Source of the DNA: Microbacteriaceae bacterium
GTDB taxonomy: Bacteria > Actinomycetota > Actinomycetes > Actinomycetales > Microbacteriaceae
DNA length: 64,000 bases
Assembly (NCBI GenBank): GCA_004297935.1
Contig: SCRE01000005.1
Coordinates: forward strand, 1 to 64,000
Reading direction: 5' to 3'
The notes beneath the pieces are model-generated. The model was given only the letters and a program-made list of their open reading frames with translations. It was not told the origin of the DNA and did no database searches. The position numbers and the translations under genes were made by a program. Below are positions 17,309 through 49,704 of the stretch, one piece after another; within the stretch, counting starts at the first letter, position 1; the number at the start of each line of letters is the position of its first letter.

Positions 17309-17419
17309 CGCAATCGGCGTGGCGGCGAATTTCTCCGTCTTTTTCGTCGGGAGCGTCGGTGCGACTGGCTCGGGTGCGACTGGCTCGGGTGCGATCGGCC
17401 CGGGTGTGATCGGATCGGG

Positions 17420-18451: not shown

Positions 18452-18485
18452 AGCGTTCCTTTTCTGTGATGGTGGTGCGGTGTGG

Positions 18486-26133: not shown

Positions 26134-28553
26134 GAGCTGCCTCCTGCCGCTGTGCTGGTATGAGCTGTGTTGGTATGAGCTGCGTTGGTCTCCGTTTGCC
26201 GGGCGCGAGCGTCTTGTATGGCGTGCCACACCCGGCTGGGCGTGCACGGCATGTGGATGTCCTCTACGCCGAACTGCCGCACGGCGTCGAGAATGCCGTT
26301 GACGATCGCCGGCGTCGAGGCGATCGTGCCCGCCTCGCCGACGCCCTTGACTCCGAGAGCGTTCGTCAACGCGGGCGTGACGGTGCGATCGGTTGTGAAC
26401 GACGGCAGGTCCGCGGCACTCGGCAGAAGGTAGTCGACGAACGAGCCGGAGACCAGTGTGCCCGAGTCGTCGTACACGGCCTCCTCGAACAACGCCTGCG
26501 AGATGCCCTGCGCGAGACCGCCGTGCACCTGGCCATCGACCAGCAGCGGATTGATGACGTTGCCGATGTCGTCGACGCAGACATAGCTGCGCAGTTTCAC
26601 CTCCCCCGTTTCGGTGTCGACTTCCATGGCGGCCAGATGGGTGCCGTGCGGGAAGTTGAAGTTCACCGGATCGAAGGTCGCATCCGAGTCGAGGCTGGCT
26701 TCGAATCCGTCCGGCAGGTTGTGGGCCGAGAAGACGGCGAACGCGATCTCGCCCAGTGTCATCCCCGCCTCCGTGCCTTTGACGCCGAACCGGCCCGCGT
26801 TGAACTCGATATCGTCGCGGTTCGCCTCCAGCAGGTGCGCCGCGACAGTCTTCGCCTTCTCGATCACCTTGTCTGCGGCGGCGACCACCGCCATGCCGCC
26901 GACGACCAGTGAGCGCGAGCCGTACGTGTCCATGCCTTTTTGCGCCACCTGGGTGTCGCCGTGCAGGATCTCGACGCTGTCGAAAGGAACACCGAGGCGA
27001 TCCGCGACGATCTGGCTGTACGAGGTCTCGTGGCCTTGCCCGTGCGGGCTGATCCCGGTGACCACCTCGACCGCGCCGGTCGCCAGCACGCGGATCTGCG
27101 CGTGTTCCCACCCGCCGGCCGCATAGTCGAGAGAGCCGAGCACTCGCGAGGGGGCGAGCCCGCACATCTCGGTGTAGGTGGAGACGCCGATGCCGAGCTG
27201 CACCCGGTCACCGGTTTCACGGCGGGCTCGCTGTTCCGCGCGCAACGCGTCATAGCCGAACAGCTCGAGGGCCTTGTCCGTCGCGGCCTCGTAGTTGCCG
27301 GAGTCGTACTCGAGCCCCGCGACGGTCGTGAACGGGAACTCTTCGTGCGTGATCCAGTTCTTCCGGCGCAGTTCGAGCGGATCCATCTTCAATTCGACGG
27401 CGAGGTCGTCCATGATCCGCTCGATCGCGAACGTCGCCTCCGGCCGCCCCGCGCCGCGGTAGGCGCCGGTGACCACCTTGTTGGTGAAGAGGTTGTTGCA
27501 CTCGAAGCGGTAGGCAGGGAACTTGTAGATCGAGTTGTACATGAAGGCACCCAGGATCGGAATGCCCGCGCCGATCAGGCTGATGTACGCGCCCATGTCG
27601 GCGAGCAGGTTCACGCTCAGCCCGGTGACGACGCCCTCCTTCGTCGCCGCGATCTTGACCCGTTGCACCTGGGCGCGGCCGTGGTGGGCGCCCATCAGCG
27701 ACTCTGTTCTGGTTTCCGTGTACTTGCACGGCTTTCCGGTGTGCCGCGCGGCCAGCAGGGTGATGAATTCTTCCGTCGTGACCGCGAGCTTACCGCCGAA
27801 GCCGCCGCCGACATCCGGTGCGACGACACGCACCTTCGACTCGGGGATGCCCAGCGCAAGCGAGATCATCAGCTTCAGGATGTGCGGCACCTGCGTCGCC
27901 GACCACATCGTGAGCTGCTCGCCGGTCGGATCGACCACGGTCGAGCGTGGCTCCATGAATGCGGGAATCAATCGCTGCTGATAATAGCTGCGCTCGAGAA
28001 CGACATCACTGTCGGCCAAGGCCGCCGCAACGTCGCCCCCGGTGCCGGCGGCAGCCGAATCGAAGACCCACTTGGCGGAGAGGTTGGTGCCGAGCTCGGG
28101 TTGGGCGAGCACCTGGTCGGTGAACGCCTCTTCGAGATCGAGCACGACGGGGAGTTCGTCGTAGTCCACGTCGATCGCATCGAGGGCATCGCGGGCTTGC
28201 GCGGCGGTCCGCGCGATCACACACGCCACGATCTCGCCGGCGAACGCAACGCGCTCGATCGCGATCGGCAGGTAGGGAACGGCCTTCTGATCTGGTGTCA
28301 CCGGCCAGGCCGACGGGATGCTGCCCTGTTCGTCGGCGACATCCTTGCCGGTGAGCACCGCGACAACACCGGGCGCCTTCCTGGCCGCCTCGACGTCGAG
28401 AGACGTGATGTTCGCGTGAGCGAACGGGCTGCGCAGCAGCGCCAGGTGCAGCATGCCGGGCAGCACCATGTTGTCGGTGTAGCGTGAGCGCCCGGTGATC
28501 AGGCGCTGGTCTTCTTTGCGGGTGCGAGGTGCGCCGATCTCGGTGATGGTCAT
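26130..28553 (-). CDS. coxL: Molybdopterin-binding large subunit, form II CoxL-like
   Basis: Xanthine dehydrogenase family large subunit with AYRGAGR active-site motif (complement of 27444-27464), not the form I AYxCSFR motif. Confidence 0.92.
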
Positions 28554-29050
28554 GCGGGCTCACCCACCGGAACGGTGGCATCCTGTTCGGCCTGTGCAGC
28601 CGCCTGCACGGCTTTGACGATGTTGTGGTAGCCGGTGCACCGGCACAGGTTGCCTTCCAGGCCTTCCCGGATCGTATGCTCGTCCGGGTTTGGATGCTCG
28701 TTCAGCAGATCGATCGACTCCATGATCATGCCGGGGGTGCAGAAGCCGCACTGCAGGGCGTGGTTCTCATGGAACGCCGCCTGCACGGGGTGGAGTTCGC
28801 CGTCATGCGCGATGCCCTCGATCGTCGTGATCTCGTGACCGTCGGCCTGAACCGCGAGCATCGTGCACGACTTGACGCTGAAGCCGTCGAGATGCACGGT
28901 GCATGCTCCGCAGTTGCTGGTATCACACCCGATCAGCGTTCCGGTCTTGCCGACGACTTCGCGAAGATATTGCACCAGCAACATTCGCGGCTCGACATCG
29001 TCGGTGTATGACATCCCATCGACATTCACGGTGATGGTCCTGCGCGTCAT
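28550..29050 (-). CDS. coxS: 2Fe-2S small subunit of the molybdenum hydroxylase
   Basis: [41 protein letters not shown]. Confidence 0.95.
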
Positions 29051-29151
29051 GGTATTTCTCCGTCCGCTTACACTTCCTCGTGTCTTCCCTGTATAACACC
29101 GACGTCTGGTAACGACAACCGACCCCGGCGCGTCCTGCGGCGGGCGCCGCG

Positions 29152-30288
29152 CTAGCCGTCCGTGCCCTGATGCACCCTGCGGTCGGTCTGACTCAACGGA
29201 ACGTTCGTTCCGCCCCAGCGCAGACCGATGATCTGCGCGGCAACCGAGACGGCGGTCTCCTCCGGGGTGCGGCCGCCGAGGTCGAGGCCGATCGGACTGG
29301 TCAGCCGGGCGAGTTCCTCCGGCCCGAGCCCAGCTTCCCTGAGGCGTACCAGGCGATCCTCATGGGTCTTTCGAGAGCCCATGGCCCCGATGTAGGCCGG
29401 GGCCTGCGTGCCTTCGAGCCGCAGTGCGAGGTCCAGCACCGGCACGTCGAACTTCGGGTCGTGCGTCAGCACGCAGATCACCGTGCGGGAGTCGATGGCG
29501 CCGGCGTCGATCTGCGTCTTCAGATACTGGTGCGGCCAGGAGACGACGACCTCGTCCGCATTCGGAAACCGGGCCTTCGTGGCGAAAACCGGTCGCGCGT
29601 CGCACACTGTGACGTGGAAGCCGAGGAATGCGCCCTGCCGGGCGACCGCGGCGGCGAAGTCGATCGCGCCGAACACGATCATCCGCGGTTTCGGTTGGAA
29701 GGATGCGACGAAGACGCGCATGCCGGTGTCCATGCGCTCGCCCTGAGCACCATAGGTCAGCACGGTCGTCGAGCCGGCGGCGAGCAGTCCGCGCGCATCG
29801 TCGATGACGGCCTCGTCGATCCGGGCGAGCCCGAGTGAGCCGCTGGCCGTCTCGGGTCGCACGATGATGCGCTTGCCGAGCAGCGTCACATCCGGATGCT
29901 CGATGATCGTGGCGATCGCCACCGGCCTTCCGGCGGTGATGTCGGCCGCGACCTCGTCCAGGTCCGGAAAGGTCTGCCGCGAGAACGGTTCGACGAAGAC
30001 GTCGATGATCCCGCCGCAGGTGAGTCCGACGGCGAACGCGTCGTCATCGCTGAAACCGTAGCGCTGCAGCACGGGTCGACCGGATGCCGCGACCTGGCTG
30101 CAGAGCTCGTAGAGCGCGCCCTCGACGCATCCGCCCGACACCGAGCCGGAGACGGTGCCATCCGCGGTGACGAGCATCGAAGCGCCCGGCGGGCGAGGCG
30201 CCGACCGGATCGTGTGCACAACCGTGCCGATACCGATGGTCTCCCCCGCATCCCACGACGCGAGCAGTTCTCCCAATACCTCACGCAT
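29152..30288 (-). CDS. XdhC/CoxI family molybdenum cofactor insertion factor
   Basis: XdhC N-domain ([14 protein letters not shown]) and Rossmann domain ([23 protein letters not shown]). Confidence 0.9.
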
Positions 30289-33578: not shown

Positions 33579-34192
33579 AGTGGCAGACCTGCTCGCGGCG
33601 CTCCGGCTGTGCCGGCCTTGCGCGGACAGATACTGACCTCGCTTGGGCGGGTGCCGGAATTTCGGGCGGACAGTTCGACGACGAACATGATTTCAGCCTA
33701 CGCCGAGACTAATCGAACCGGTCTGGGTACGTCATCAACATCGTCGCGGCCCAATCAATGCGCCACATCACACAGGCGAGGTCGTTTTGCATCAACTACG
33801 GGTTACCGCTCAGCGGGCCGTCTCCCACGGCAGGAGAGCAGGGCGTTGAAGCACCGGCCCGATCACGCGATTCCGACTGACGCAATACCGCACCTTTCGC
33901 CGGGTTAGTGGGGTCAAACAGAATCATATTCTGATAATTTAGTCTCCATATGTGATAAGACTCCATAAGGATCATTGCAGCACTATTCGCCAACGCTGCC
34001 GCTTTGACTTCGGTCAAGCGGCCGTGTTTCAGAAACGCGCGATCGGTGGAAGATTCGCAGTAGTCCGCTGATTTTACTTCGAACTGTCGCGTCGTCCGTG
34101 TCCTGACTATTGCGTTATGTAAGAATCCGTTTGTAACATGTGACAACAATGTGAACTTCAACAATGAGTTCAAAGTAGGAGGGCACCACGGG

Positions 34193-35341
34193 ATGACTAC
34201 TTCCACTGAACGGCATGCCGAGATTTCGGGAGCAGGATTCGCAGGCCTCACCGCCGCCGTCGCGCTCGCCCAGCGCGGCTGGTCGGTGCGGGTGCACGAG
34301 CGCGGCAAGAAGCTGCGCGAGGAGGGTGCCGGCATCGTCCTCTGGCAGAACAGCCTGACCGTGCTTGACGCGCTCGGTATCACGGAGGAGCTTATGACGA
34401 ACTCCATGCGGCCGCCCTACTATGAAACCCGGATGCAGAACGTGATCGTGTCCGACGAGAGCCTCGACGGCATTCGCTGGCGTACCATGACCCGGCCCCA
34501 TCTGCACAGCTGCCTGCTGAACGCGGCGCGCAAGGCCGGGGCGGAGATCATCGCCGGTTCTGAAGTCCGCTCGGCCACAGAGGAGGGTGTCGTCACGCTG
34601 GCGGATGGCTCGAAGATCGAGGCGAGTCTGGTGGTCGGTGCAGACGGTGTCGGCTCGAACGTGCGCGACTCGCTCGGCATCGAGTATGAGCGTCAGCGCT
34701 CCGGCGACGGTATCAGCCGGTTCCTCGTGGGCCGGCACAAAGCCGAGCTTCAGGCCATTGAGCCAGAGACCGAGTGGGACAACGTCATTGATTTCTGGAA
34801 TTTCGATCCGCGGGTGCTTCGTGTGCTTTATACGCCTGCGAACGACAGAGAGCTCTACTTGGCGCTGATGGCGCCCGCCGCGGACGAGGACGGTACCCGG
34901 GTGCCGATCGACCTGGACCTGTGGACGTCCATCCACCCGCAGCTTGCACCGGCGCTCAAGGAGGTCGCGCAGAAGAAAGGCAAGCATTACGGCTACCAGA
35001 CCACCCGCCTGGCGGAGTGGACCCGCGGCCGCGTCGCGCTCGTCGGCGACTCCGCGCATGCCATGTGCCCGGCGCTCGCACAGGGGGCGGGGTGTGCGAT
35101 GGTGAACGCGTATACGCTCGCACAGGCCGTTTCCGACGGCCCGCTCGGCGAACTGCCCGATGTGCTCACCGAGTGGGAACGTGTGGAGCGCCCCTACACC
35201 GATCGTGCGCAGACACGGTCACAGGAGTACGCCGACACGCGGAACATGTCCAAAGGGGGTCAGTTCGTGGGCAACGTCAACGAGACGACCCTGTATGACC
35301 CGACCGACCCGAACCGCCACGACGCAGTGCACGCGCACTAG
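34193..35341 (+). CDS. FAD-dependent monooxygenase, 2-methyl-3-hydroxypyridine-5-carboxylate oxygenase (MHPCO)-like
   Basis: GAGFAGLTAAVALAQRGW; YETRMQN; LMAPAADEDGTRVPIDLDLW; RVALVGDSAHAMCPALAQGAGCAMVNAYTLAQ. Resembles Mesorhizobium MHPCO, with B6-catabolic neighbours. Confidence 0.85.
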   Translation: MTTSTERHAEISGAGFAGLTAAVALAQRGWSVRVHERGKKLREEGAGIVLWQNSLTVLDALGITEELMTNSMRPPYYETRMQNVIVSDESLDGIRWRTMTRPHLHSCLLNAARKAGAEIIAGSEVRSATEEGVVTLADGSKIEASLVVGADGVGSNVRDSLGIEYERQRSGDGISRFLVGRHKAELQAIEPETEWDNVIDFWNFDPRVLRVLYTPANDRELYLALMAPAADEDGTRVPIDLDLWTSIHPQLAPALKEVAQKKGKHYGYQTTRLAEWTRGRVALVGDSAHAMCPALAQGAGCAMVNAYTLAQAVSDGPLGELPDVLTEWERVERPYTDRAQTRSQEYADTRNMSKGGQFVGNVNETTLYDPTDPNRHDAVHAH

Positions 35342-35369
35342 AGTGCTCCGAGAATCGAGGAAGACGAAG

Positions 35370-35963
35370 ATGTCACACAACGAGATCGACCCCTACTATG
35401 AGGTCCGCGAGTGGTTCGGCTTTGTGCAGGAGGTCCGCCACGAGGGCGGTACCCCCGCTGACGAGCCGCTCGTAAAGGCGGCGGCCGGCGTGGTCATCGC
35501 GAATCCCTTTGCGGGCCGCTATGTGGAGGACCTCTCACCGCTGACTGCACCGAGCGCGAGTATCGGGACGGCCCTCGGCCGCCGGGCCGCAGCACTCCTC
35601 GGCAGCAGGCCGGTGGAGGGCTACGGCAAGGGCGGGATCGCGGGCCTGTCCGGGGAGCAAGAGCACGTGGTTGCCTGCGTGACCACTGTCTTCGGCGATG
35701 CCTTCCGTGACGCCGTGGGCGGTGGGGCGGCTTGGATATCCTCCGCCACCAAGACCGCCTCGGCGGGGACCCCGCTTGACATTCCGCTCGCCTTCAAGGA
35801 CGAGATCTACGTACGCTCGCATTACGACGCGGTGACGGTCGCGGTACCGGATGGGCCCCGGCCGGACGAACTGATGATCGTCGTCGCCGTCGCGTCCGGC
35901 GGACGCATCCACAACCGAGTAGGCGGCCTGAGTCGTGAAGAGGCGCTCGCACGCCGAGTGTAG
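35370..35963 (+). CDS. Amino acid synthesis family (DUF1185-like) protein
   Basis: Body pattern ...ANPFAGRYVEDLSPLT...LGRRAAALLG...GYGKGGIAGLSGEQEH...; ATG at 35370. Confidence 0.75.
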   Translation: MSHNEIDPYYEVREWFGFVQEVRHEGGTPADEPLVKAAAGVVIANPFAGRYVEDLSPLTAPSASIGTALGRRAAALLGSRPVEGYGKGGIAGLSGEQEHVVACVTTVFGDAFRDAVGGGAAWISSATKTASAGTPLDIPLAFKDEIYVRSHYDAVTVAVPDGPRPDELMIVVAVASGGRIHNRVGGLSREEALARRV

Positions 35964-35998
35964 GCGCGAGTTGAGAAGTCCCCAATGGAGAGGAAGTC

Positions 35999-36760
35999 AT
36001 GAGTTATACCCACGGTCAATACCATCAGGACCAGTCGATCGCGAACTTGCTTGAGGACGTCGCCCGCGCCCACCGGATCCTGGAGCTGGAGGGTCACGGC
36101 GACATGTCGATGGGCCACCTCTCCCTGCGCGACCCATTCGGCCGCGGCCTGTGGCTGAAGCGCGGCAACCTGGCGCTCTCCGAAGTGGTGGGTGACGACT
36201 TCATCCTGATCGACTTCGACGGCAACGTACTGGAGGGTCAGGGCCTGCGCCACCTGGAGTGGCCACTCCACGCCGAGATCATGCGCGCCCGGCCGGACGT
36301 GAACGTGGTCGGCCACTCGCACGCCCACTACTCGACCGTCTTCGGCGCCACAGACCTGGAGCTCGGCCCCTACAACAACCACGGCGTCTGGTTTGCGAAG
36401 GAGGGCGTGCCGCGCTTCACCGACACGAGCCACATCGTCACCACCGTCGAGCTGGGTGTGGAGGTGGCGAAGCAGTTGGGTGCCGCGGAGGCGATCCTGC
36501 TGGAACACCACGGCATCGCCTTCGTCGGTGGCGACGTGACGCAGGCGACCCTCGCCGGCATCTTCCTGGAGTGGGCGGCCAAGTTCCAGCTGGACCTGGT
36601 CGCGAGCGGTGCGAAGTTCAGTCTGCCGGATCCGGCGGAGAGTGTAGAGAAGCTGCGTCGCATCTACCCGCCGAAAGCCCAGCGCAACTACTGGATGTAC
36701 TTCAACCGCAAGCTGGACCGGGTGGAGGCGGTGCAGGGCGTCGGCATCGCCTCGATGTGA
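35999..36760 (+). CDS. Class II aldolase/adducin family; candidate 3-hydroxy-2-methylpyridine-4,5-dicarboxylate decarboxylase
   Basis: GHGDMSMGHLSLRDPFGRGLWLKRG; HSHAHYSTVFGATD; metal-binding His cluster. The HMPDC decarboxylase belongs to this family. Confidence 0.8.
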   Translation: MSYTHGQYHQDQSIANLLEDVARAHRILELEGHGDMSMGHLSLRDPFGRGLWLKRGNLALSEVVGDDFILIDFDGNVLEGQGLRHLEWPLHAEIMRARPDVNVVGHSHAHYSTVFGATDLELGPYNNHGVWFAKEGVPRFTDTSHIVTTVELGVEVAKQLGAAEAILLEHHGIAFVGGDVTQATLAGIFLEWAAKFQLDLVASGAKFSLPDPAESVEKLRRIYPPKAQRNYWMYFNRKLDRVEAVQGVGIASM

Positions 36761-36821
36761 CCCGCCGCGCTGTGACCCGCCACTCCCAGCCAACTCACCA
36801 CATTACAAAGGAGTAGAAATC

Positions 36822-37754
36822 ATGAGTCTTCCCACAGTTGCCACTGTCGTCGGATCCGGCACGATGGGCCCCGGCATCGCCGCCACCCTGAAGCGGGCCG
36901 GCGTGCAGGTGCGCGTGTATGACATCAGCATCGAAGCGCTCGCGCGCGCCGAGAAGACGTTCGCGATGGCCGAGAAGGTGCTCGAAGGCCTGGGTGGCGT
37001 GGCCGCGGAGGGCGGCTCCGTCGCCTTCCTCGACCAGCTCGACCCGGCACTCGACGGCACCGATTTCGTCATCGAAGCCGTGCCGGAGAAGTTGGAGCTC
37101 AAGGAGAGCGTCCACAGGCAGATCGAGGAGCGCGTCGGCACGGAGGTGATCATCGCCACTAACACCTCCGGTATCCCGATCACCACCATGGCCACGTCAC
37201 TGAAGAATCCGGGCCGCTTCGTCGGCATGCACTGGTCTAACCCGCCGCACCTGATCCCCATGATCGAAGTGATCCCCGGCGAGCAGACCGATGAGAAGGT
37301 CGTCGAGCGCGTCCGCGAGGTGGTGCGCGCATTCGGGTACCACCCCGTGCTGGAGAAAGAGATCGCCGGCTTCATCGAGAACCGTGTGCTCTACGCGATC
37401 ATGCGCGAATGCGTCGCGCTCGTGCAGGCGGGCATCGCCACGCAGGAGGACGTCGACACCTGCGTCAAGTGGGGTATCGGCTACAAGCTCTCCGTCGTGG
37501 GGCCGATGCGACTGCTCGACATGGCCGGTCTGGACATCTACCAGAGCGTCTCCAGCTACCTCAACAAGGAGCTGGACGCGAGCACGGATACCCCACAGAT
37601 CGTCAAGGACCTCATCGCCGACGGCAAGCTCGGCTTCAAGACCGAGGGCGGGATGTACTCCTACGGTCCCGGCGACGTGGACGCCACCCGCGTCGCGATC
37701 GTGCAGGGCCTGATCACGGCGCGCAAGGCGCTCGAGACGATCCCGTCCGTCTGA
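36822..37754 (+). CDS. 3-hydroxyacyl-CoA dehydrogenase family; candidate FHMPC 5-dehydrogenase
   Basis: VGSGTMGPGIAATLKRAGVQVRVYDIS; MHWSNPPHLIPMIEVIPGEQT; the B6 pathway FHMPC dehydrogenase belongs to this family. Confidence 0.8.
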   Translation: MSLPTVATVVGSGTMGPGIAATLKRAGVQVRVYDISIEALARAEKTFAMAEKVLEGLGGVAAEGGSVAFLDQLDPALDGTDFVIEAVPEKLELKESVHRQIEERVGTEVIIATNTSGIPITTMATSLKNPGRFVGMHWSNPPHLIPMIEVIPGEQTDEKVVERVREVVRAFGYHPVLEKEIAGFIENRVLYAIMRECVALVQAGIATQEDVDTCVKWGIGYKLSVVGPMRLLDMAGLDIYQSVSSYLNKELDASTDTPQIVKDLIADGKLGFKTEGGMYSYGPGDVDATRVAIVQGLITARKALETIPSV

Positions 37755-37795
37755 TGGTCACGCTCTGATGGTCACGCTCTGATGAATGCGCTCTG

Positions 37796-38632
37796 ATGAA
37801 TACAGTGGAGCGGGACGGCGAGAATCTCCGTCGCACTCGGCGTGCCGGCGTGGAGCTGGCGTTCCGGGTCTGCGGGGAGGGCATCCCGGTCGTCCTGCTG
37901 CACGGCACCTCCGCGAACTTCGCGGTGTGGGAGCCGGTCGCGACTGCGCTCGCCCCCCGGGCGACGGTGGTCACGCTCGACCAACGCGGCCACGGCCGCA
38001 GCGACAAGCCCGATGCGGGCTACGATGGCGCCGCCTTCGCGGACGACGTGGTCACGGTGCTGGATGCGCTGAACCTGCAGCGCGCGGTCATCGCCGGCCA
38101 CTCGCTCGGAGCGCGTAACGCCTGGGTGACAGCGGCACGGCATCCGCAGCGGGTGGCCGCAGTCGTCGCCGTCGACTACGTGCCGTACGTTGAGGCGAGG
38201 GTGCTGGACACCCTGCAGACGCGGGTCGCCTCGGGGAACCGCGTGTTCGCCGACGTCCCCGAGATCGAGGACTACCTGCAGAGGCGCTACCCGCGGATGC
38301 CCGCGAATGCGGTCGCGCGCCGTGCGCGCTGGGGTTACCGGCTGCGTGATGAGGGCGGCTGGGTGCCGCTGGCGACGCCGGCCGCACTGGAGCAGGTGGT
38401 CGAGGGGCTGCGCACCCCCTGGGACGAGGAGTTCCGCACGGTGCGCACGCCGATGACGTGCATGCGCGGCGTCGACAGTGCGATCGTCAGCCCGGCGGCT
38501 TGGGCACGGGCTCAGCAGGACCGACCCGATGCACGCTGGGTCGTGATCGACGACGCCGACCATTACGTGCCGGAGGAGCATCCGGACGCCGTCGTGGGGG
38601 AGATCCTCCGGATACTCGACGGCATCGACTAG
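37796..38632 (+). CDS. Alpha/beta hydrolase; candidate (E)-2-(acetamidomethylene)succinate hydrolase
   Basis: VVLLHGTSANFAVWEPV; GHSLGARNAWVTA nucleophile elbow; position in the B6 cluster. Confidence 0.75.
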   Translation: MNTVERDGENLRRTRRAGVELAFRVCGEGIPVVLLHGTSANFAVWEPVATALAPRATVVTLDQRGHGRSDKPDAGYDGAAFADDVVTVLDALNLQRAVIAGHSLGARNAWVTAARHPQRVAAVVAVDYVPYVEARVLDTLQTRVASGNRVFADVPEIEDYLQRRYPRMPANAVARRARWGYRLRDEGGWVPLATPAALEQVVEGLRTPWDEEFRTVRTPMTCMRGVDSAIVSPAAWARAQQDRPDARWVVIDDADHYVPEEHPDAVVGEILRILDGID

Positions 38633-39672: not shown

Positions 39673-41232
39673 CTAGTGCTGCGCGGCGAAGGATTCCGCC
39701 ACGGCCAGGACTGCGGCGTGTACCGGCCCCGTCGTGATCGACGGGAAGACGGAGGCGTCGACCACGGAGAGGTTGTCGAGGCCGCGGAAGCGTAGCGACG
39801 GGTCGACCACGGAGTCATCATCGGCGCCCATCCGGCAGGTGCCGACCGGATGGTGGTGGGTGATCGCGGCGCGGGCGATGAAGGCGTCGAGGGCCGCCGG
39901 ATCGGAAGCTGCTGTGCCGGAGATCGACGGGCCGGGGAGCAGCTCCTCTGCGCGCCACTCGGCCATCGCCTCGGAGTGGCCGACGAGGCGGGCGAACTCG
40001 AGAGCGCGTCGGAAAAGGGTGCGGTCGTGCTCGGTCAACAGATATGCGGGGTCGATGATGGGGGCATCGTCGACATCCGGGCCGGTGATGCGCAGGGCGC
40101 CGCGGCTCGTCGGGTGAGTGACGCCGAACAGCAGGGTGTAACCGCCGTCCTCACCCAGGTCTGCAGCCGCTGAGGCGTACCGTTCCGAGACGCTCGGTGC
40201 GACCACGCAGCCGACCACCACCTCCGGTATCCCCGACGCCCCGGGCCCGTCTTCCGCGAGATACGTCATCGACTCGGAGAGCTGCAGTCGCGTCGGCGGC
40301 ACCCGCCGCCGCGAGCGGTAGAGGTTGCCTGCACCGAGCAGGTGGTCATGCAGATTGCGGCCCACCTCCCGGCACTCCAGCACGACCGGGACGCCGGCGG
40401 CGGCCAGAACTTCCGGGTCGCCGATTCCGGAGCGCATGAGGAGCAGCGGATCGCTGATCGCGCCCGCCGCGAGGATGACCTCATCCGCCTCGAGGGTCTC
40501 CAGGTGCCCGGCCCGGCTCAGCTCGACGCCGCGCACCGCGCCATCCCTCACAACCAGGCGGTGCACGAGCGTGTGGTCCCGCACGTCGAGATTGGGTCGC
40601 GCGAGCACGGGAGCAGAGAGGTAGGCGTCGGCGGCGGTCACGCGCCTGCCATTCTCGATGGTCAGCGAGTTGGGTGTCGCGCCGATCATGCTGCCGTGAT
40701 TGTGGTCGTGGATGCGGGGGACGCCCAGCGACTCCCACGCCGCCAGATAGCTTCCGACCAGCGGGCTCGAGAGCCCCTCATCGGGCAGCAGTACCGGTAG
40801 CGGACCGTCGCCGCCGTGGAACTCGTCCGCGGCGCCGGAGAAGCGCTCGAGTGCACGGAAGTGCGGCAGCAGAGCATGCCACGACCAGCGTTCGTCGCCC
40901 GTGACCTCCACCCAGGCGGCGAAGTCGGAGGCGTCACCGCGCATGTGCGCCATGGCGTGCAGGTTGCTGGACCCGCCGAGCCCGCGACCGCGCGGCCATG
41001 GCATCCGGCGTCCGTCCAGGCCCGGCTGTGGCGTGGTCGTGTACGCCCAGTCGTAGTCACGGCCCTGAATGAATGGCCAGCGCTCCGGTCGGGCGACCTC
41101 CGGATCCGTGATCCGAGTCCCCGCCTCCGCTAGTGTGACGCGCCTGCCGGGATCAGCGCTGAGGCGGTTCGCCAGGACCGCGCCCGACGAACCGCCCCCG
41201 ACGATGAGGACGTCCGCACCCGACAGTGTCAC
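39673..41232 (-). CDS. GMC family FAD oxidoreductase; candidate pyridoxine 4-oxidase
   Basis: VLIVGGGSSGAVLANRLSADPGRRV; GLGGSSNLHAMAHMRGDASDFAAW; HHHPVGTCRMG; VVDASVFPSITTGPVHAAVLAVAE. GTG start at 41232. Confidence 0.82.
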   Translation of the reverse strand: MTLSGADVLIVGGGSSGAVLANRLSADPGRRVTLAEAGTRITDPEVARPERWPFIQGRDYDWAYTTTPQPGLDGRRMPWPRGRGLGGSSNLHAMAHMRGDASDFAAWVEVTGDERWSWHALLPHFRALERFSGAADEFHGGDGPLPVLLPDEGLSSPLVGSYLAAWESLGVPRIHDHNHGSMIGATPNSLTIENGRRVTAADAYLSAPVLARPNLDVRDHTLVHRLVVRDGAVRGVELSRAGHLETLEADEVILAAGAISDPLLLMRSGIGDPEVLAAAGVPVVLECREVGRNLHDHLLGAGNLYRSRRRVPPTRLQLSESMTYLAEDGPGASGIPEVVVGCVVAPSVSERYASAAADLGEDGGYTLLFGVTHPTSRGALRITGPDVDDAPIIDPAYLLTEHDRTLFRRALEFARLVGHSEAMAEWRAEELLPGPSISGTAASDPAALDAFIARAAITHHHPVGTCRMGADDDSVVDPSLRFRGLDNLSVVDASVFPSITTGPVHAAVLAVAESFAAQH

Positions 41233-41245
41233 AAACCCTCCGCGC

Positions 41246-41980
41246 TCAGTTGCGCGTATGGCCGCCATCGACCACCAGGGTCTGACCGGTGATCCAGCCT
41301 GCCTCCTCCGAGGCGAGGAAGGCGACGGCAGGGGCGATGTCCTGCGGCAGTCCTCGGCGGTCGAACGCCTGCGCAGGCACCACGTAGTCGAAGCCGCCCG
41401 CGTGTGGCCCGGACATCACGCCTTCGCTCGCGGTGAGGCCCGGCGCGACTGCGTTCACGGTGATCCCGTTCTTGCCCACCTCGCCGGCGAGCGCGCGTAC
41501 GAGTCCGATGGAGGCGCCCTTCGTCGCCACGTAGTGGGCACAGTTCGGGGTGCCTGCCACGAAGGTATTGGAGGCGATGTTGACGATACGGCCGTAGCCG
41601 GCCTTCGCCATCTCGTCGCCGACCGCGCGGATCATGAGGAAGAGGCCGTCGAGGTTCACCGCCATCACGCGACGCCACTCCTCGAAGCTGATGTCCTCCC
41701 ACGCCACGAACGGGACGATGGCTGCGTTGTTGACCAGGATGTCGATCCGCCCGAACCTCTGCATGGCTTCCGCGGTGAGCGCCGTGACCTGTTCCGGGTC
41801 GCTCACATCCACGCGGATCGCATGCCCGTCGATTTCCGTGGCGACTTTCTGCGCACCTTCCAGGTTGAGGTCTGCGACGACGACCCGGTGGCCGTGTTTC
41901 GCGAGTTCCCGGGCGATGGCCGCGCCGATGCCCTGCGCGGCTCCGGTGACGATCGCCACCCGCTGTGCTGAATCCGTCAT
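41246..41980 (-). CDS. SDR family oxidoreductase; candidate pyridoxal 4-dehydrogenase
   Basis: VTGAAQGIGAAIARELAKHG; NNAAIVPFVAWEDI; IASNTFVAGTPNCAHYVATKGA; WITGQTLVVDGGH. Confidence 0.82.
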   Translation of the reverse strand: MTDSAQRVAIVTGAAQGIGAAIARELAKHGHRVVVADLNLEGAQKVATEIDGHAIRVDVSDPEQVTALTAEAMQRFGRIDILVNNAAIVPFVAWEDISFEEWRRVMAVNLDGLFLMIRAVGDEMAKAGYGRIVNIASNTFVAGTPNCAHYVATKGASIGLVRALAGEVGKNGITVNAVAPGLTASEGVMSGPHAGGFDYVVPAQAFDRRGLPQDIAPAVAFLASEEAGWITGQTLVVDGGHTRN

Positions 41981-42025
41981 GTGGTCTGCTCCGTTCTTTC
42001 GTCGTTGACCGGGTCGGCGCCGTGC

Positions 42026-42802
42026 TTAGCTGCCGCCGTAGTACGCGGGGGCCAGTTTCCAGCTGAGAAACGGCTCCATCTCGTGCGAGGGGTATACGTC
42101 GGCGCCGCGGGTGCGCGCAAGGTACTTGAGGCGCCGGATCGACTCCAGCGAGTCGGTGGGGTCGTTGTGGAAGCCGCCCACGATCTCGTCGCTGAGGGTC
42201 CGCTCTGTGTAGGCGGCATCGCCGGCGAAGAGCATCGAGGGCTCCTTCTCGAACTCCACGAGCATCGAGTAGTGCCCCACCGTGTGGCCGGGGGTCTCGA
42301 AGAGGTGCACGCCGGGGGCTATCTCGTAGTCTCCGGAGATCGGCTGGTATTTAACGCCCTCGTGATCGAAGGAGAGGTCCGAGTAGCCGAGGCGCTCGAA
42401 GGACTCCGGCACTTTGGCGTGTCGCAGCTCCTCCTTGTGCACGAGGGTGACCGCGTTCGTCAGATACTTGTTGCCACCCACGTGGTCGAAGTGGAAGTGC
42501 GAGTTGACGACGATGTCCACGTCCTCCGGCTCGTAGCCGCAGAGCGCGAGCTGGCCGGGGATGGTCTGTTCGGGCGTCTGCTCCGGCAGCTCGAACGGCA
42601 GCACCCGGTTGGTGTGCTCCAGGTCGAAGCCGGTGTCGAAGAGGATCAGCGCGTTCGGATGCTCCACCAGCACGCTGTAGACGGGGAACCGCACCGGGGT
42701 CCCCGGGTCGATGTGCCAGAACACATCTGACTTGTCGATGACGAGGGTCCCGCCGTCGAGTAGATAAACCTTGGGGTCAGCCACGTTGCCTCCCGGCGTC
42801 AT
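42026..42802 (-). CDS. MBL-fold lactonase; candidate 4-pyridoxolactonase (AHL lactonase superfamily)
   Basis: KVYLLDGGTLV, PVRFPVYSVLVEHPNALILFDTG, NSHFHFDHVGGNKYL, FERLGYSDLSF, TPGHTVGHYSMLVEF. Confidence 0.85.
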   Translation of the reverse strand: MTPGGNVADPKVYLLDGGTLVIDKSDVFWHIDPGTPVRFPVYSVLVEHPNALILFDTGFDLEHTNRVLPFELPEQTPEQTIPGQLALCGYEPEDVDIVVNSHFHFDHVGGNKYLTNAVTLVHKEELRHAKVPESFERLGYSDLSFDHEGVKYQPISGDYEIAPGVHLFETPGHTVGHYSMLVEFEKEPSMLFAGDAAYTERTLSDEIVGGFHNDPTDSLESIRRLKYLARTRGADVYPSHEMEPFLSWKLAPAYYGGS

Positions 42803-42908
42803 TGTTTTATATGTCGTTAATTGATTGTCACATTATGAGAGCAAATGAGCAGTGTCAAGAGTCCGATGCGAGTGACGCGACCGGAATCTCGGAACCGAAC
42901 GACGGTAC

Positions 42909-43433
42909 TCAAGGAGCCGGAGTCGGAAACGGCGTGGGCGGTGGTGAGGCGAGTCTCGGCCCGTCTTCGAACCGCGGCTCTGCGGAGTAGTACGCCCAGC
43001 GGTAACACCCGGTGAGCATCGGGCTCTTGTAGAAGTCGCCGATGCAGGTCATGTCCTTGTAGCGCGCCGTCCTTCCCTCCTTGTAGTGCACACGGCAGAG
43101 GACACTGAAGACTCCGACCGGCGCCGAGCCACCAAGAAGGTGCTGCGACGGCGTCCAGCAGTCGACGCCGGTCACAGTGCCGTCGATCTCCGCGCTGCCC
43201 GCGGCGGCACGACTCAACTGTTTGCCGGCCTCGGTATCGCGCAGAGACATCGGTGCCGCAGCAGTCGGTGTCGCCGAGGAAATACTCGCGGGATGCCCGG
43301 GCTCACCCGTTCCGCCGGAGGCGCAGCCAGAGAGGATCACGGCAATTGCTGCCAACAGCACCAACGGACTCTTTGTGGATCTGCTGATGGTCGTTCCTCC
43401 TCCGTGAGTACCGACGAGCATCGCTCGGATCAC
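42909..43433 (-). CDS. Putative lipoprotein of unknown function
   Basis: Lipobox ILSGCASGG preceded by a hydrophobic segment; Cys-rich C-terminal region. Confidence 0.6.
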   Translation of the reverse strand: MIRAMLVGTHGGGTTISRSTKSPLVLLAAIAVILSGCASGGTGEPGHPASISSATPTAAAPMSLRDTEAGKQLSRAAAGSAEIDGTVTGVDCWTPSQHLLGGSAPVGVFSVLCRVHYKEGRTARYKDMTCIGDFYKSPMLTGCYRWAYYSAEPRFEDGPRLASPPPTPFPTPAP

Positions 43434-43602
43434 GGGATCGTATCATTCCAAAGCTGAGACGCAGAAGCGTTGACACCGTAGTAACAATCTCATAATATCA
43501 AACAAGTCTCGCATACTGTGAGAACAACTTGGAGTGCTCCGCCGTTCGATACGGCGGGACAGCGTAGTCCCGAGAGGTCAATCCAGAAGGGGAGTATCCG
43601 TT

Positions 43603-44688
43603 ATGAGCGACACCACGTCCTTGCATCAAGGGAGTCGCCTACTTAAGCGCATTGCCGCATTCGCCTGCATGGCGGTGCTCGTGACCGGGATGGCGGCTTG
43701 CTCGTCGCGTACCGGTGATTCCGGCTCCACAGGCTCCACCGCCGGAAAAAAAGTGGCTCACATCGCCGTCGTCACCCCGGCAACGGAGGCCGATCATGGC
43801 TGGAACCAGCAGGGCCTAGCCGCTGCTGAAGGCACGGCCAAGAATCTCGGCCTGAAGTTGATGACCGACACGAACGTCGGCTACGACAACACGCAGACGA
43901 TCCTGACCCAAGTGGCCAAGAAGGGCAACCAGTTGGTGATCGCCTGGGCAAGCGGCTTCACTACGGCCGCGGCGAGGGCCGCGACCGCAACCGGTGTCCC
44001 GATCCTCGTGGTCGACAACCCGAGCGCGGCGATCCCCGGCAAGGTCGGCGTCGTGACCTTCGAGGCACAGCAGGGCGCCTACCTGGCCGGTATTGCGGCC
44101 GCCATGACCACGAAGTCGAAGATCGTGGGTGTCGTGGTCTCGGCAGACGATATCAACTGGTTCAACATGTCGGGTGGCTTCATCCAGGGTGTCCGCAGCA
44201 TCGACCCGAGCATCAAGATCGTGATGGCCTACATCGGAGCCGCCTCCTACGACGACTCGGCGGGCGGCAAGAAGGTGGCCAACCAGGTCATTGCGGCCGG
44301 TGCCGACGTCGTATTCGGGATGGGCGACGGCTCGACCGTCGGGTACATTGCTGCGGTCGAGAGTGCACCGAATCCGGTGAAGTACATCGCGGACATCGGC
44401 GACGTCACCGACCTCTTGAAAGACCCGAACACCATGCTCACCTCGGTGCGCTGGAACATGGAGGGATCCTTCACCGCGGCGGTCAAGGCGGTTGAGGATG
44501 GCTCGTTCGGCAAGAAGCCGTTCACCCTCACCCTCGCCAACGGCGGCCTCTCGCTCCAGGACACGCCGAACCTCACGCCTGAAATCAAGACGGCAGTGGA
44601 CAAGGCTAAGAAAGGCATAATCGACGGATCGATCACGGTGAAGCCGTCGACGACCAAGGCGGCCGTCACCGCGCTGCTCAACCAATAG
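43603..44688 (+). CDS. BMP family ABC transporter substrate-binding lipoprotein (candidate B6 vitamer-binding protein)
   Basis: VTGMAACSS lipobox; HIAVVTPATEADHGWNQQGLAAAEGTAKNLGLKL; GDGSTVGYIAAVE; ATG at 43603. Confidence 0.88.
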   Translation: MSDTTSLHQGSRLLKRIAAFACMAVLVTGMAACSSRTGDSGSTGSTAGKKVAHIAVVTPATEADHGWNQQGLAAAEGTAKNLGLKLMTDTNVGYDNTQTILTQVAKKGNQLVIAWASGFTTAAARAATATGVPILVVDNPSAAIPGKVGVVTFEAQQGAYLAGIAAAMTTKSKIVGVVVSADDINWFNMSGGFIQGVRSIDPSIKIVMAYIGAASYDDSAGGKKVANQVIAAGADVVFGMGDGSTVGYIAAVESAPNPVKYIADIGDVTDLLKDPNTMLTSVRWNMEGSFTAAVKAVEDGSFGKKPFTLTLANGGLSLQDTPNLTPEIKTAVDKAKKGIIDGSITVKPSTTKAAVTALLNQ

Positions 44689-44814
44689 AAGGCACGGGAT
44701 CCCCGGTCGAAGGGCCGGAGGGTGCCCGGTGGACCGGGCCGCCGAGGAATGGGTGGCCCGGTCCACCGAACGCGGCACTGTTGACCCTGCGATCGATCAG
44801 AACGGAGAAGTTCG

Positions 44815-46419
44815 GTGACTAGCGCCGTCGATGCGGGCGTGATCTCGCTCAAGCACATCACGAAGACATTTCCCGGGGTCGTCGCGAACGATGATGTGTC
44901 GCTCGACATCATCAGCGGGCAGGTGCACTGCCTCCTTGGTGAGAACGGCGCTGGCAAGTCGACGCTCATCAGCATCCTCGCCGGCATGCAACAGCCAGAC
45001 TCCGGCACGATCGAGATCGACGGAAACCCTCTGCATCTTGGCTCCCCGAAGGCTGCGAAAAGCCAGGGTATCGGCGTGGTCTACCAGCATTCGACTCTCG
45101 TTCCGACTTTGTCAATCATCGAGAACCTGATGTTGGGGGAATCCGGGTTCCTGCTCAACGAGAAACGCGCGATCGCCCGCCTCGAGGAGCTCTCGGACTT
45201 GCTCGGAGCCTCGATCGAGCCTTATTCCCGCACCAGTGAGCTCGGTCTCGGCCAGCAACAGCAGGTGGAGATCGCGAAGGCGATGTGGACTGGTTCTCGG
45301 CTCCTCATCCTCGATGAACCGACCTCGATGCTGACACCGCGGGCCATCGAGGCTCTGGCTGAGAACGTCGCGCGGTTGAAGGACCGCGGGCTGGCTGTGG
45401 TGTTCATCACCCATAAGCTCCGCGAGGCCTACGCGATGGGTGACTGCATCACCGTCCTGCGCTCCGGGAAGAACGTGCTTCACCTCTCTCCGGAGGACAT
45501 GGCCGGACAATCGGAGAGTCAAGTCCAAGACACGGTGTTGAGGGCGATGTTCGGGGGGGACCTCGCCGCAGCGGGAGGCAAAGGAGCCGCATCCGACCTG
45601 GCTGGTGCGAACGAGCGCACCCGCGAAAGCGTGGCCGTCGACAACCGGAGCATGCCTATCAGGCTGCAGTTGGACGGGATCTCGACCGTGGGCAAGACGA
45701 TGGATGTCGTCGTGACAGACGTGACGCTCTCGATCCACGAGGGAGAGATTCTCGGCATAGCCGGCATCGATGGTCACGGGCAGACCGGGCTCGCCGAGGT
45801 CGTCGCGGGTCAGCGGCCGGCCAGTGCGGGCAGCGTGTTGCTCGACGGTGCTGACGTGACCAAAAAGGGCGTCCGGGACAGGCAGGCTCTCGGCTTGCGG
45901 TATGCCTCCGACGATCGCCTTCACGAGGGCACGGTGGCAGGACTCAGTGTGGCCGTGAACCTCATGCTCAAACGCATCGGTGAGGCGCCATTCTGGCGCT
46001 GGGGGTACACGAACAGGGTTGCCATCGACGCTGAGGCTCGGCAGCTTGTCGACGAATACGAGGTGCGAACACCAAGCCTGACCACGCGCGTCGGTGCGCT
46101 GTCAGGTGGCAACATCCAGAAGGTCGTTCTCGCCCGCGAGCTCAAGGGGGATGCACGTGTCCTCGTGGTCAACAAACCCACCTACGGCTTGGACCTCAAG
46201 ACCGTCCAGTTGGTGCACGAGCTTGTGACCGATTTCGCTGAGCGGGGAGGCTCCGTGCTGCTTCTATCGAACGAGCTCGACGAGCTGATCGTGCTGGCGC
46301 ATCGCATCGGCGTCATCTCCCACGGTCGCATCCTGGGGACCGTGGAGAACAGGGACGCAGATACGGCGGCGAAAGTCGGGCAATTGATGATCGGTGGTGG
46401 TGACCGTGGCGGCGAATGA
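44815..46419 (+). CDS. Nucleoside/sugar-type ABC transporter ATP-binding protein (two ATPase domains)
   Basis: GENGAGKSTLISILAGMQQPDSGTI; LGLGQQQQVEIAKAMWTGSRLLILDEPTSMLTP; second domain LSGGNIQKVVLARELKGDARVLVVNKPTYGLD. Confidence 0.92.
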   Translation: MTSAVDAGVISLKHITKTFPGVVANDDVSLDIISGQVHCLLGENGAGKSTLISILAGMQQPDSGTIEIDGNPLHLGSPKAAKSQGIGVVYQHSTLVPTLSIIENLMLGESGFLLNEKRAIARLEELSDLLGASIEPYSRTSELGLGQQQQVEIAKAMWTGSRLLILDEPTSMLTPRAIEALAENVARLKDRGLAVVFITHKLREAYAMGDCITVLRSGKNVLHLSPEDMAGQSESQVQDTVLRAMFGGDLAAAGGKGAASDLAGANERTRESVAVDNRSMPIRLQLDGISTVGKTMDVVVTDVTLSIHEGEILGIAGIDGHGQTGLAEVVAGQRPASAGSVLLDGADVTKKGVRDRQALGLRYASDDRLHEGTVAGLSVAVNLMLKRIGEAPFWRWGYTNRVAIDAEARQLVDEYEVRTPSLTTRVGALSGGNIQKVVLARELKGDARVLVVNKPTYGLDLKTVQLVHELVTDFAERGGSVLLLSNELDELIVLAHRIGVISHGRILGTVENRDADTAAKVGQLMIGGGDRGGE

Positions 46420-47524
46420 CCGATCGCGGCTGCAACGCGGCACCGGCATCGTCGTTCGTTCGGTGCTGCCAGTCGTTTTCGCGCTCATCGTCGGGGCGAT
46501 CATCCTCTGGGCGCTGGGCAAGAATCCGTTGACTTTCTACGGCGACATCGTGGAGAACGGGCTCGCCGACGGCAACTGGCAGAGCAGCATGGTGCTCATG
46601 TCGCCGCTCTTGATCATCGGCATCGCGCTCATCGTCGTGTTCCGGGGCCAGCTCTGGAACCTGGGATACGACGGCCAATATCTTCTCGGCGCGGTTTTCG
46701 CTGCTGGATTCGGGCCGGCCCTGACCCAGCAGCTGCCGCTCTTCCTCGCCTACATCGTGCTCAGCGTGGGTGCGATCGCCGTCGGTGCGATCTGGACGCT
46801 CATTCCCGCCTGGCTGAAGGCGCGTTACGGAACGAACGAGATCATCACGACCCTGGTGATGTCGACGATCGGCATCGGCATCGCGAACATGCTCATCAAG
46901 GGGATGTTCCAGGACCCCAAGGTGGTGACGCCACAGACGGCGGCGGTCCCGGTCGACTCCATGCTGCCGTTCATCCCGGGAACGCAGGTGAACATCGGGT
47001 TCATCGTCGCCATCGTCGTCGCGCTGGCGTTCCATGTGATCCTGACCCGCACTTCGTTCGGCCTGCGTCTGGATGTCTTCGGTTCGAACCCCAAGGCGGC
47101 GCGGCACGTCGGAATCAATTCACGATGGATGGTCGTCGTGCTCTTCCTCATCAGCGGCGGACTGATCGGCCTGGCGGCCTCGATGGACATGCTCGGGCAG
47201 TGGGGCTATCTTCGCGCCAACTGGAACCCTTCCTACGGCAACGAGATCCTGCCGTTCGTCTTCTTGGCTCGGCTCAGCCCGCTAGCCTCGATTCCGTTCA
47301 TCGCTTTCTACTCCGTGTTCGCCACCGGCGCGACGATTGCATCACAGCAAGCCGGCCTGTCGGTGGACTTCCTGATGGTCATCGTCGCGCTTGTCCTGGT
47401 CTTCATGACGATCACCGAGTACGTAGGAACCAAGCGTGACCTCGGCCAGAGCTATCTGCCGGACGAGTTGAAGGACGCCATTCGGAAACCGTTCGCCTCA
47501 TTCGCAGAAAGGGGCGCGTCGTGA
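46394..47524 (+). CDS. ABC transporter permease (nucleoside-type)
   Basis: BPD_transp_2-type multi-TM protein; FRGQLWNLGYDGQYLLGAVFAAGF; SNPKAARHVGIN. Confidence 0.9.
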   Translation: MVVTVAANDRSRLQRGTGIVVRSVLPVVFALIVGAIILWALGKNPLTFYGDIVENGLADGNWQSSMVLMSPLLIIGIALIVVFRGQLWNLGYDGQYLLGAVFAAGFGPALTQQLPLFLAYIVLSVGAIAVGAIWTLIPAWLKARYGTNEIITTLVMSTIGIGIANMLIKGMFQDPKVVTPQTAAVPVDSMLPFIPGTQVNIGFIVAIVVALAFHVILTRTSFGLRLDVFGSNPKAARHVGINSRWMVVVLFLISGGLIGLAASMDMLGQWGYLRANWNPSYGNEILPFVFLARLSPLASIPFIAFYSVFATGATIASQQAGLSVDFLMVIVALVLVFMTITEYVGTKRDLGQSYLPDELKDAIRKPFASFAERGAS

Positions 47525-48456
47525 GTGATCTGCTGACCCCGGCGTTCCTCGCCACGTTCGTCATCGGCTGCATCATGGGGGCGATGCCGCTGATGATCGC
47601 GGCCGTCGGTGAGACCATCGGGGAGGCGGCCGGGGTGCTGAACCTCGGTATCGAGGGCATGATGCTGGTCGGCGCCTACGTCGGATATGTCGTCGCGCTC
47701 GGTACGCATTCGCTCTGGGCGGGCATGTTGGGTGGTGCCATCGCCGGCGCCGTCTTCTCCCTCGTGATGCTGGTACTCAACGTCTGGTTGGGGCTCAACC
47801 AGATCGTTCTCGGCATTGCTATCACGCTCGCCGGCACCGGGATCACGAGCGTTCTCTACTACGAGCTGTACGGCACCAAGACGCCGCGAGTAGCAGATGC
47901 CTTCGATTGGCAGATTCCAGGTCTGTCGAAGATTCCCGTCGTCGGACCCTCGATCTTCAGCCAGTCACCTATCTTCTGGGTCTGCATCGTGCTTGTCGTC
48001 ATCGTCGCATGGGCGTTGAAGAAGACCAATTGGAGTCTCAGCATCCGGGCCGCCGGACAGATGCCGTCATCGCTTGACGCGGCGGGTGGCAGCGTGATGC
48101 GTACTCGGTCACAGGCCGTATTGATCGGTGGAACCTTTGCGGGATTGGGTGGCGCCTACCTTTCGCTGATCGCGACAGGAGCGTTCACCCCGGTGATCAC
48201 GAACGGCATCGGGTTCGTCGCGATCATCGTGACGATGGTGACGAACGGGAGGATCATCTGGGTAGCGGCGATGTCGCTCCTCTTCGGCCTCTCTGTATCT
48301 GTGGGGACGGTTCTGCAGTTGACCAGTCTCAACATCCCCACGGACATCATCGGGATGCTGCCCTATGTCGTGGTGATGGTCGTCCTGATGATCTTCGCCC
48401 GGAGCGTTTACATCTCGCCGGCGCTGGCCGCGCCCTACACGAGAGGCGCGCGCTAG
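47521..48456 (+). CDS. ABC transporter permease (nucleoside-type, second)
   Basis: VGETIGEAAGVLNLGIEGMMLVGAYVGYVVA typical of NupC/RbsC-like permeases. Confidence 0.9.
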   Translation: MSDLLTPAFLATFVIGCIMGAMPLMIAAVGETIGEAAGVLNLGIEGMMLVGAYVGYVVALGTHSLWAGMLGGAIAGAVFSLVMLVLNVWLGLNQIVLGIAITLAGTGITSVLYYELYGTKTPRVADAFDWQIPGLSKIPVVGPSIFSQSPIFWVCIVLVVIVAWALKKTNWSLSIRAAGQMPSSLDAAGGSVMRTRSQAVLIGGTFAGLGGAYLSLIATGAFTPVITNGIGFVAIIVTMVTNGRIIWVAAMSLLFGLSVSVGTVLQLTSLNIPTDIIGMLPYVVVMVVLMIFARSVYISPALAAPYTRGAR

Positions 48457-48493
48457 GCAGCGCGCACCGCAACCCGACAGAAGGGAACATCCA

Positions 48494-49651
48494 ATGACTC
48501 AGCCCGACTTCACGCTCTCCGCGGGGCCGACGATGGCGACGTCACGAACGCTGGCTGCGCTCGGCAGTCCCATCACCTACCACTACGATCCCGACTTCCT
48601 GGCGGCATTCCGTCGTACGCAGGAGAAGGTAGCGCAGATCTTCCGCACTGCGAATGACATCGTGCTCATGCAGGGCGAGGCCATCGTTGCGCTGGAGGGC
48701 GCCGCGCGTTCGCTCACGCGCCCGGGTATGCCAGTGCTCAACCTCGTACAGGGTGTATTCGGCAAGGGCATGGGCTATTGGCTGAAGGAGTACGGCGCTA
48801 TCCTGCACGAGATCGAGGTGGGCTACGACGACGCGGTCTCGCCTGAGTCGGTAGATGCCTACTTGACGGAGCATCCGGAGATCGAATTGCTCACCGTCGT
48901 TGCTTCCGAGACTCCCTCGGGGACGATTTCGGATATGTCCGCGATCGGGCCGATCGCGAAGCGTCACGGCGTGCTCACCCTGGTGGACACCGTGTCCGGG
49001 GTGGGCGGTATGGAATTTGAGACGGACTCCTGGGATCTCGACGTGTGTGTGGCTGGAGCCCAGAAGTGCTTGGGAGGGCCTCCCGGAGTCGCCCTAGTGA
49101 GTGTGAGCACGGCCGCTTGGGAGTCTATCCTCAGCAACCCGGCCGCTCCGCGCGCCTCGTACCTCTCGCTCATCGACTGGAAGGAGAAGTGGCTGGAGGG
49201 CGGTGCCTTCCCGTACACGCCCTCCGTTTCGGACATGCACGGCCTCGAGTCGGTGTGCGACCAGCTCCTGGAAGAGGGGCTTGAGAACTCCATAGCGCGG
49301 CACGACGCCTCGGCACGGGTGACGCGGGCCGGAGTCCTTGCAATGGGGCTCCAGCTGTGGCCGGTCTCCGAATCGATCGCAGCGAATTGTGTCACCTCGG
49401 TGCGGTTGCCGGAGGAAGTGGATCATCTGGAATTGCGCACGCATATCCGCTCCCGGTATGGCGTAATGCTCTCGAGCGGCCAAGGAGCCGGTAACTTGAT
49501 GAGAATCGCGCACATGGGTCCCACCGCTCAGGGGATGTACCCTATCGTCGGACTATCCGCACTCGGTCGTGGACTCGCAGACTTCAAACAGCCTGTCGAT
49601 ATCGGTGCCGGTGTCGCGGCGGCCCTTGAGGTTCTGAGTTCGCAGAAATGA
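48494..49651 (+). CDS. Class V aminotransferase; candidate pyridoxamine-pyruvate aminotransferase
   Basis: LTVVASETPSGTISDMSAIG; GAQKCLGGPPGVALVSVS; FPYTPSVSDMHGLE; RIAHMGPTAQGMYPIVGLSALG. Confidence 0.85.
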   Translation: MTQPDFTLSAGPTMATSRTLAALGSPITYHYDPDFLAAFRRTQEKVAQIFRTANDIVLMQGEAIVALEGAARSLTRPGMPVLNLVQGVFGKGMGYWLKEYGAILHEIEVGYDDAVSPESVDAYLTEHPEIELLTVVASETPSGTISDMSAIGPIAKRHGVLTLVDTVSGVGGMEFETDSWDLDVCVAGAQKCLGGPPGVALVSVSTAAWESILSNPAAPRASYLSLIDWKEKWLEGGAFPYTPSVSDMHGLESVCDQLLEEGLENSIARHDASARVTRAGVLAMGLQLWPVSESIAANCVTSVRLPEEVDHLELRTHIRSRYGVMLSSGQGAGNLMRIAHMGPTAQGMYPIVGLSALGRGLADFKQPVDIGAGVAAALEVLSSQK

Positions 49652-49704
49652 GGTGTGCCGTGACCGCAACAGGCTGGCGAGCACCCACGAGGAAGGGATG
49701 AGCA

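Follow-up and report, generated by a model that had tools for sequence, protein, structure and literature searches.

A putative vitamin B6 importer of the BMP family within a vitamin B6 degradation cluster of a Microbacteriaceae bacterium

Four closely spaced genes on the plus strand of a 64,000-nucleotide stretch of DNA from a soil-type actinobacterium of the Microbacteriaceae (hereafter the window, meaning the whole stretch analyzed) very probably encode a BMP (PnrA/Nup-type) ABC importer of unphosphorylated vitamin B6 vitamers, re-tooled from nucleosides. We infer this from family models, context conserved in two phyla, lactonase co-occurrence, a shared operator and the loss of ribose-binding residues, all of which support the proposal of the initial annotation that the system imports B6 vitamers and not nucleosides. 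The novelty implied there was overstated, as NCBIfam already names a ‘putative B6 ABC transporter’ (NF047927-NF047930), a family name that is itself a prediction. Our analysis adds independent supporting evidence, predicts a regulon and proposes a lipoprotein as a new candidate partner. We found no paper proposing or testing a BMP-type B6 importer, in a literature search that mostly lay outside subscription journals.

In the proposed mechanism, a lipid-anchored substrate-binding protein (SBP) would catch the vitamer (pyridoxal and/or pyridoxine and pyridoxamine) between aromatic residues and pass it to the permease pair, with ATP use by the double ATPase driving uptake into the cell. Once inside, the vitamer would be channeled into degradation pathway I by pyridoxine oxidase, an enzyme resembling pyridoxamine-pyruvate aminotransferase (PPAT) and pyridoxal dehydrogenase. 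The adjacent IclR protein would probably exert joint control over the divergent transporter and lactonase promoters, via a shared inverted repeat. Table 1 lists the features of the locus.

Table 1. Transporter genes, surrounding pathway genes and predicted regulatory elements in the window
Feature	Position	Strand	Basis or remark
MHPCO	34151-35341	+	best PDB match 3gmb MHPCO
Probable HMPDC decarboxylase	35999-36760	+	Pfam Aldolase_II; name inferred from pathway position
FHMPC dehydrogenase	36822-37754	+	best PDB match 4om8 FHMPC dehydrogenase
Probable AAMS hydrolase	37796-38632	+	Pfam Abhydrolase_1; name inferred from pathway position
Pyridoxine 4-oxidase (GMC)	39673-41268	-	nearest in PDB: pyridoxine 4-oxidase, 3t37/4ha6 (579 bits; next family 261)
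Pyridoxal 4-dehydrogenase (SDR)	41246-41980	-	NF047923 394 vs 325 bits; best PDB match 3ndr
4-Pyridoxolactonase	42026-42784	-	NF047925 414 vs 325 bits; best PDB match 3aj3 4-pyridoxolactonase
Half-site TCTCATAATGT, same as in transporter promoter	42830-42840	-	in lactonase promoter
Lactonase promoter	TTGACA 42858-42853, TAATGT 42835-42830	-	predicted from sequence
Small Cys-rich lipoprotein, unnamed family, probable transporter partner	42909-43433	-	lipobox LSGC
Transporter promoter	TTGACA 43470-43475, spacer 17, TAATAT 43493-43498	+	predicted from sequence
Inverted-repeat operator, TCTCATAATAT + partner half-site	43488-43523	+	overlaps transporter promoter; 25 bp start-to-start
BMP/PnrA-type substrate-binding lipoprotein (SBP)	43603-44688	+	361 aa; NF047927 (putative B6 ABC transporter SBP)
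Double ATPase	44815-46419	+	534 aa; NF047930 (putative B6 ABC transporter ATP-binding protein)
Permease	46394-47524	+	376 aa; NF047929 (putative B6 permease subunit 2)
Permease	47521-48456	+	311 aa; nearest NF047928 (putative B6 permease subunit 1), below cut-off
PPAT-like enzyme	48494-49651	+	best PDB match 2z9u, 350 bits; next 134
IclR-family regulator, probable regulator of cluster	49705-50460	+	Pfam IclR_C, HTH_IclR

The initial annotation placed four importer genes between the lactonase and PPAT genes, and their open reading frames, coordinates and Pfam families stand; it left unmentioned the small lipoprotein gene that also lies between the lactonase and SBP genes. The SBP start codon (ATG) is preceded by GAAGGGGAG, and the lipobox in the SBP sequence (..MAAC) points to an exported lipoprotein. 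The SBP matches Pfam Bmp (PF02608; 85.5 versus 24.1 bits), and its AF2 model (pLDDT 88) adopts the PnrA fold, with PnrA (E 5e-22), Lbp and AtzT as the nearest folds found by Foldseek. The ATPase has two ABC_tran domains, the first with intact motifs (GENGAGKST, LLILDEP) and the second degenerate (GIDGHGQT, VLVVNKP), and both permeases carry BPD_transp_2. The NCBIfam models describe the same four subunits and, in carriers, the same B6-degradation context. Three of the four window proteins pass their cut-offs: the SBP with 440.4 bits (cut-off 400), the ATPase with 753.5 (670) and the permease assigned to NF047929 with 487.9 (400). The other permease (permease 1) reaches only 343.2 bits against the 465 of NF047928. 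Its actinobacterial orthologues likewise score below the cut-off, at 332-426 bits, whereas one alphaproteobacterial orthologue scores 550, and the shortfall therefore seems to reflect a bias of the seed, not a different gene. Relatives of the locus occur in Leifsonia, Schumannella and Aurantimicrobium, which assigns it to the Microbacteriaceae.

Judged by sequence matches, the transporter is embedded in a nearly complete cluster for vitamin B6 degradation by predicted pathway I enzymes. The lower-pathway block of the cluster spans 34151-38632 on the plus strand; a separate gene for 4-pyridoxic acid dehydrogenase was not assigned. The PPAT call of the initial annotation is likely. Its best PDB match is a PPAT structure (2z9u), but at 422 bits the protein falls below the NF046070 cut-off of 600, as do its actinobacterial relatives, while alphaproteobacterial ones pass. 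We compared it with the M. loti enzyme, whose active site we take to comprise Glu68, Tyr95, Asp171, Lys197, Arg336 and Arg345 (our computed numbering is lower by one than that of M. loti). Glu68, Asp171, Lys197 and Arg345 are kept; in the actinobacterial clade Arg336 is replaced, by Gln in most members and together with a two-residue deletion, and Tyr95 is also replaced (Phe in the window). Because the protein scores below the NCBIfam cut-off and differs at Tyr95 and Arg336, its identity as a PPAT is probable, not certain. The actinobacterial PPAT-like enzymes may in truth have a different donor and acceptor. Genes for CoxL/CoxS-like subunits of molybdenum hydroxylase, together with an XdhC-type accessory gene (26130-30288, minus strand), adjoin the B6 cluster, and the window also holds a phosphonate-type ABC transporter with a PhnE-like permease and a PhnD-like binding protein (14524-18754, minus strand).

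We compared the loci around B6-type SBP members with those around other BMP proteins. A lactonase gene lies near the SBP gene in 17 of 19 Microbacteriaceae loci, and an IclR gene also in 17 of 19. One of the two lactonase-less loci belongs to genome G400; the other is a 4.2-kb contig, and in that genome the lactonase lies on a different contig. Near other BMP genes, neither lactonase nor PPAT was found in any of 20 loci, including those of the three other BMP proteins encoded in the window's own 3.95-Mb genome. Among 300 Microbacteriaceae genomes, 20 have the SBP and 18 the lactonase, each of these 18 also being an SBP carrier (Fisher’s test, 5e-27, uncorrected for kinship, 15 genera); the SBP carriers without a full lactonase are G571, in which the gene is cut by a contig end, and G400. 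The same gene set surrounds the SBP in alphaproteobacterial loci (L119, L120, L122, L124) in another order. As gene order varies between subgroups (e.g. L085, L093, L097) and again in Alphaproteobacteria (L119, L120, L124), the link between transporter and catabolism does not stem from one inherited arrangement.

Gene content across the carriers also bears on the predicted ligand. PPAT is missing from six carriers, where at best 28-32% paralogues occur and pyridoxine oxidase is nearby, and two carriers have PPAT without pyridoxine oxidase. The transporter is kept in both types, so it cannot serve only pyridoxamine or only pyridoxine; pyridoxal, or a broad range of vitamers, would fit best. The PLP synthase PdxS is missing in 6 of 20 SBP carriers versus 13 of 280 other genomes (P = 6e-4, with kinship ignored and two of the six being incomplete genomes). 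It is present in the window’s own genome, so import here would serve catabolism.

The enzyme most tightly linked to the SBP is the lactonase, and pyridoxine oxidase or PPAT can be absent. This pattern would also suit a transporter of a later or neighboring pathway compound (4-pyridoxic acid, 4-pyridoxolactone or a B6 glycoside), and genomic context does not discriminate between vitamers and 4-pyridoxolactone or 4-pyridoxic acid. We nevertheless consider such a substrate unlikely. In G400, lactonase, PPAT, pyridoxine oxidase and PdxS are all absent from the genome; retention of the transporter by an apparent PLP auxotroph devoid of the catabolic genes is expected of a B6 importer, whereas a PLP-needing organism gains nothing from 4-pyridoxic acid. 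Furthermore, two alphaproteobacteria have the transporter beside PPAT and no lactonase. Two alphaproteobacterial carriers, G854 and G1022 (loci L125 and L126), have no lactonase in the genome and no recognized B6-degradation genes nearby, and for this reason the B6-type SBP family may cover more than one ligand. In these two loci the transporter could be used either for salvage or for another ligand.

Import of vitamers is further suggested by the binding pocket. The window transporter shares with PnrA-, BmpA-, BmpD- and NupABC-type importers the fold, the lipoprotein anchor, the double ATPase with two permeases and the aromatic cradle. BmpA clasps its nucleoside between Phe27 and Phe176, and its conserved polar residues Asp98, Asp225 and Lys242 are placed to engage the sugar (PMC13325309). 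We mapped these positions by aligning the sequences of 34 B6-type proteins and 22 other BMPs, with BmpA numbering as reference. Asp225 corresponds to Ile265 and Lys242 to Trp284 in all 34 B6-type proteins, while 18 of the 22 other BMPs have Asp and 18 have Lys at the respective positions. Phe27 corresponds to Trp67 (Tyr in some), Phe176 to Tyr216 (34/34) and Asp98 to Asp138 (33/34). Asp19 is replaced by Pro, and an additional Trp186 is invariant in B6-type proteins only. By this alignment, the ribose anchors appear lost and the aromatic cradle kept. Residue 115 falls in a loop that, in BMP relatives, borders the ligand site. It is Trp in the window protein and a same-genus relative (L088) and His in 31 of 34 B6-type proteins, a possible change of vitamer preference.

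These residues bear directly on whether the system could be an ordinary nucleoside or nucleobase importer sitting in the cluster by chance, as might be supposed from the nearest solved relatives by sequence and fold, PnrA, Lbp and AtzT, which bind nucleoside or guanine. We rejected that reading, which we hold to be very improbable, on pocket residues and context: besides the replaced anchors, B6-type members score 398-495 bits (one truncated match, 332) versus at most 118 for other BMPs, the B6 context is conserved and the operator shared, and the genome has its three other BMP proteins. Import of the phosphorylated vitamer PLP, for which P5PA of Actinobacillus is a binding-protein-dependent precedent (PMC8427247, PMC9997740), is hardly to be expected either, given that the linked enzymes act on unphosphorylated vitamers and that no Arg or Lys appears among the positions invariant in the aligned SBP family.

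Joint control of transporter and lactonase by the neighboring IclR protein would be the simplest reading of the sequences upstream of both. The half-site consensus is TCTCAYANTRT. Exact half-sites number four in the window versus 0.12 expected, a count that is partly circular as the pattern was derived from these promoters; two lie in the transporter promoter, one in the lactonase promoter and one inside a CRISPR spacer. Independent support for the predicted operator comes instead from its constant position and spacing in other genomes: in nine genomes, the window’s included, both half-sites match exactly at an unchanged 25-bp spacing, and in several the half-site recurs before the lactonase. 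The pattern is absent from 351 kb of control loci. PPAT-less loci have a variant (TTCTCATATCGT ... GCACAATGTAAGA) in place of the exact pattern, and a scan of Alphaproteobacteria did not reveal the exact pattern either. No Rfam match to a riboswitch was found in 42000-50600. A Type I-E CRISPR-Cas system (Cas3, Cse1, Cas7e, Cas5e, Cas1e; 50548-64000) begins directly downstream of the IclR gene, with an array of at least 46 repeats (period 61) running from ~60.9 kb to near the window end.

The small lipoprotein encoded divergently from the SBP gene is a probable partner of the transporter. Its homologues share five invariant cysteines in the mature part (C1, C56, C77, C94 and C107), one of which is in the lipobox, and a conserved core, CWxPSxH...CR.HY...RY.D..C.GDF..PML.HCY.W. 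It occurs in 19 of 19 sampled SBP carriers and elsewhere yields one weak match (E 1e-4; 260 Microbacteriaceae genomes), and in G400 its gene is directly upstream of the SBP gene on the same strand; its association with the transporter is thus tighter than that of any enzyme. No Pfam or NCBIfam model matches it, no homologue was found in the alphaproteobacterial loci examined, and a search of its model (pLDDT 86.5) against the PDB returned nothing significant (best E 0.7). We do not claim an NTF2/KSI-like fold, to which the resemblance is vague at that score. A more speculative idea, which we put forward tentatively and consider somewhat doubtful, is that the actinobacterial B6 importer is a five-part system needing this lipoprotein, as a dedicated, disulfide-rich member of a new family, to collect, release or protect vitamers at the surface and hand them to the SBP.

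There is precedent for a change of ligand on this fold. AtzT, a BMP-fold protein, binds guanine and 2-hydroxyatrazine, with a small aromatic ligand lacking ribose sandwiched by Tyr and Trp (PMC6834077), and RfuABCD of spirochaetes takes up riboflavin by a COG1744/BMP-type system (PMC4418817). Both are distant from the window SBP: AtzT (6pi5) has ~20% identity, with polar contacts (Glu165, Asn218, Asn220) of its own, and RfuA (4iil, found by fold) has 17% identity, another ligand and another phylum. They show that the BMP fold can change its ligand. The characterized B6 transporters, PdxU, PdxU2/HmpT and P5PA, are COG4720 membrane proteins and a COG1840 binding protein (PMC9997740); these families are unrelated to the window transporter and have in common with it the proposed uptake of B6 vitamers. 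A 2023 survey counted only three characterized prokaryotic B6 transporters, two with verified substrate (PMC9997740). B6 import is among the least defined parts of vitamin metabolism, and the B6-type BMP family, spread over two phyla, offers a concrete importer open to testing: it comes with a model of the pocket, a predicted regulon, a carrier that is apparently auxotrophic (G400) and a lipoprotein as candidate accessory.
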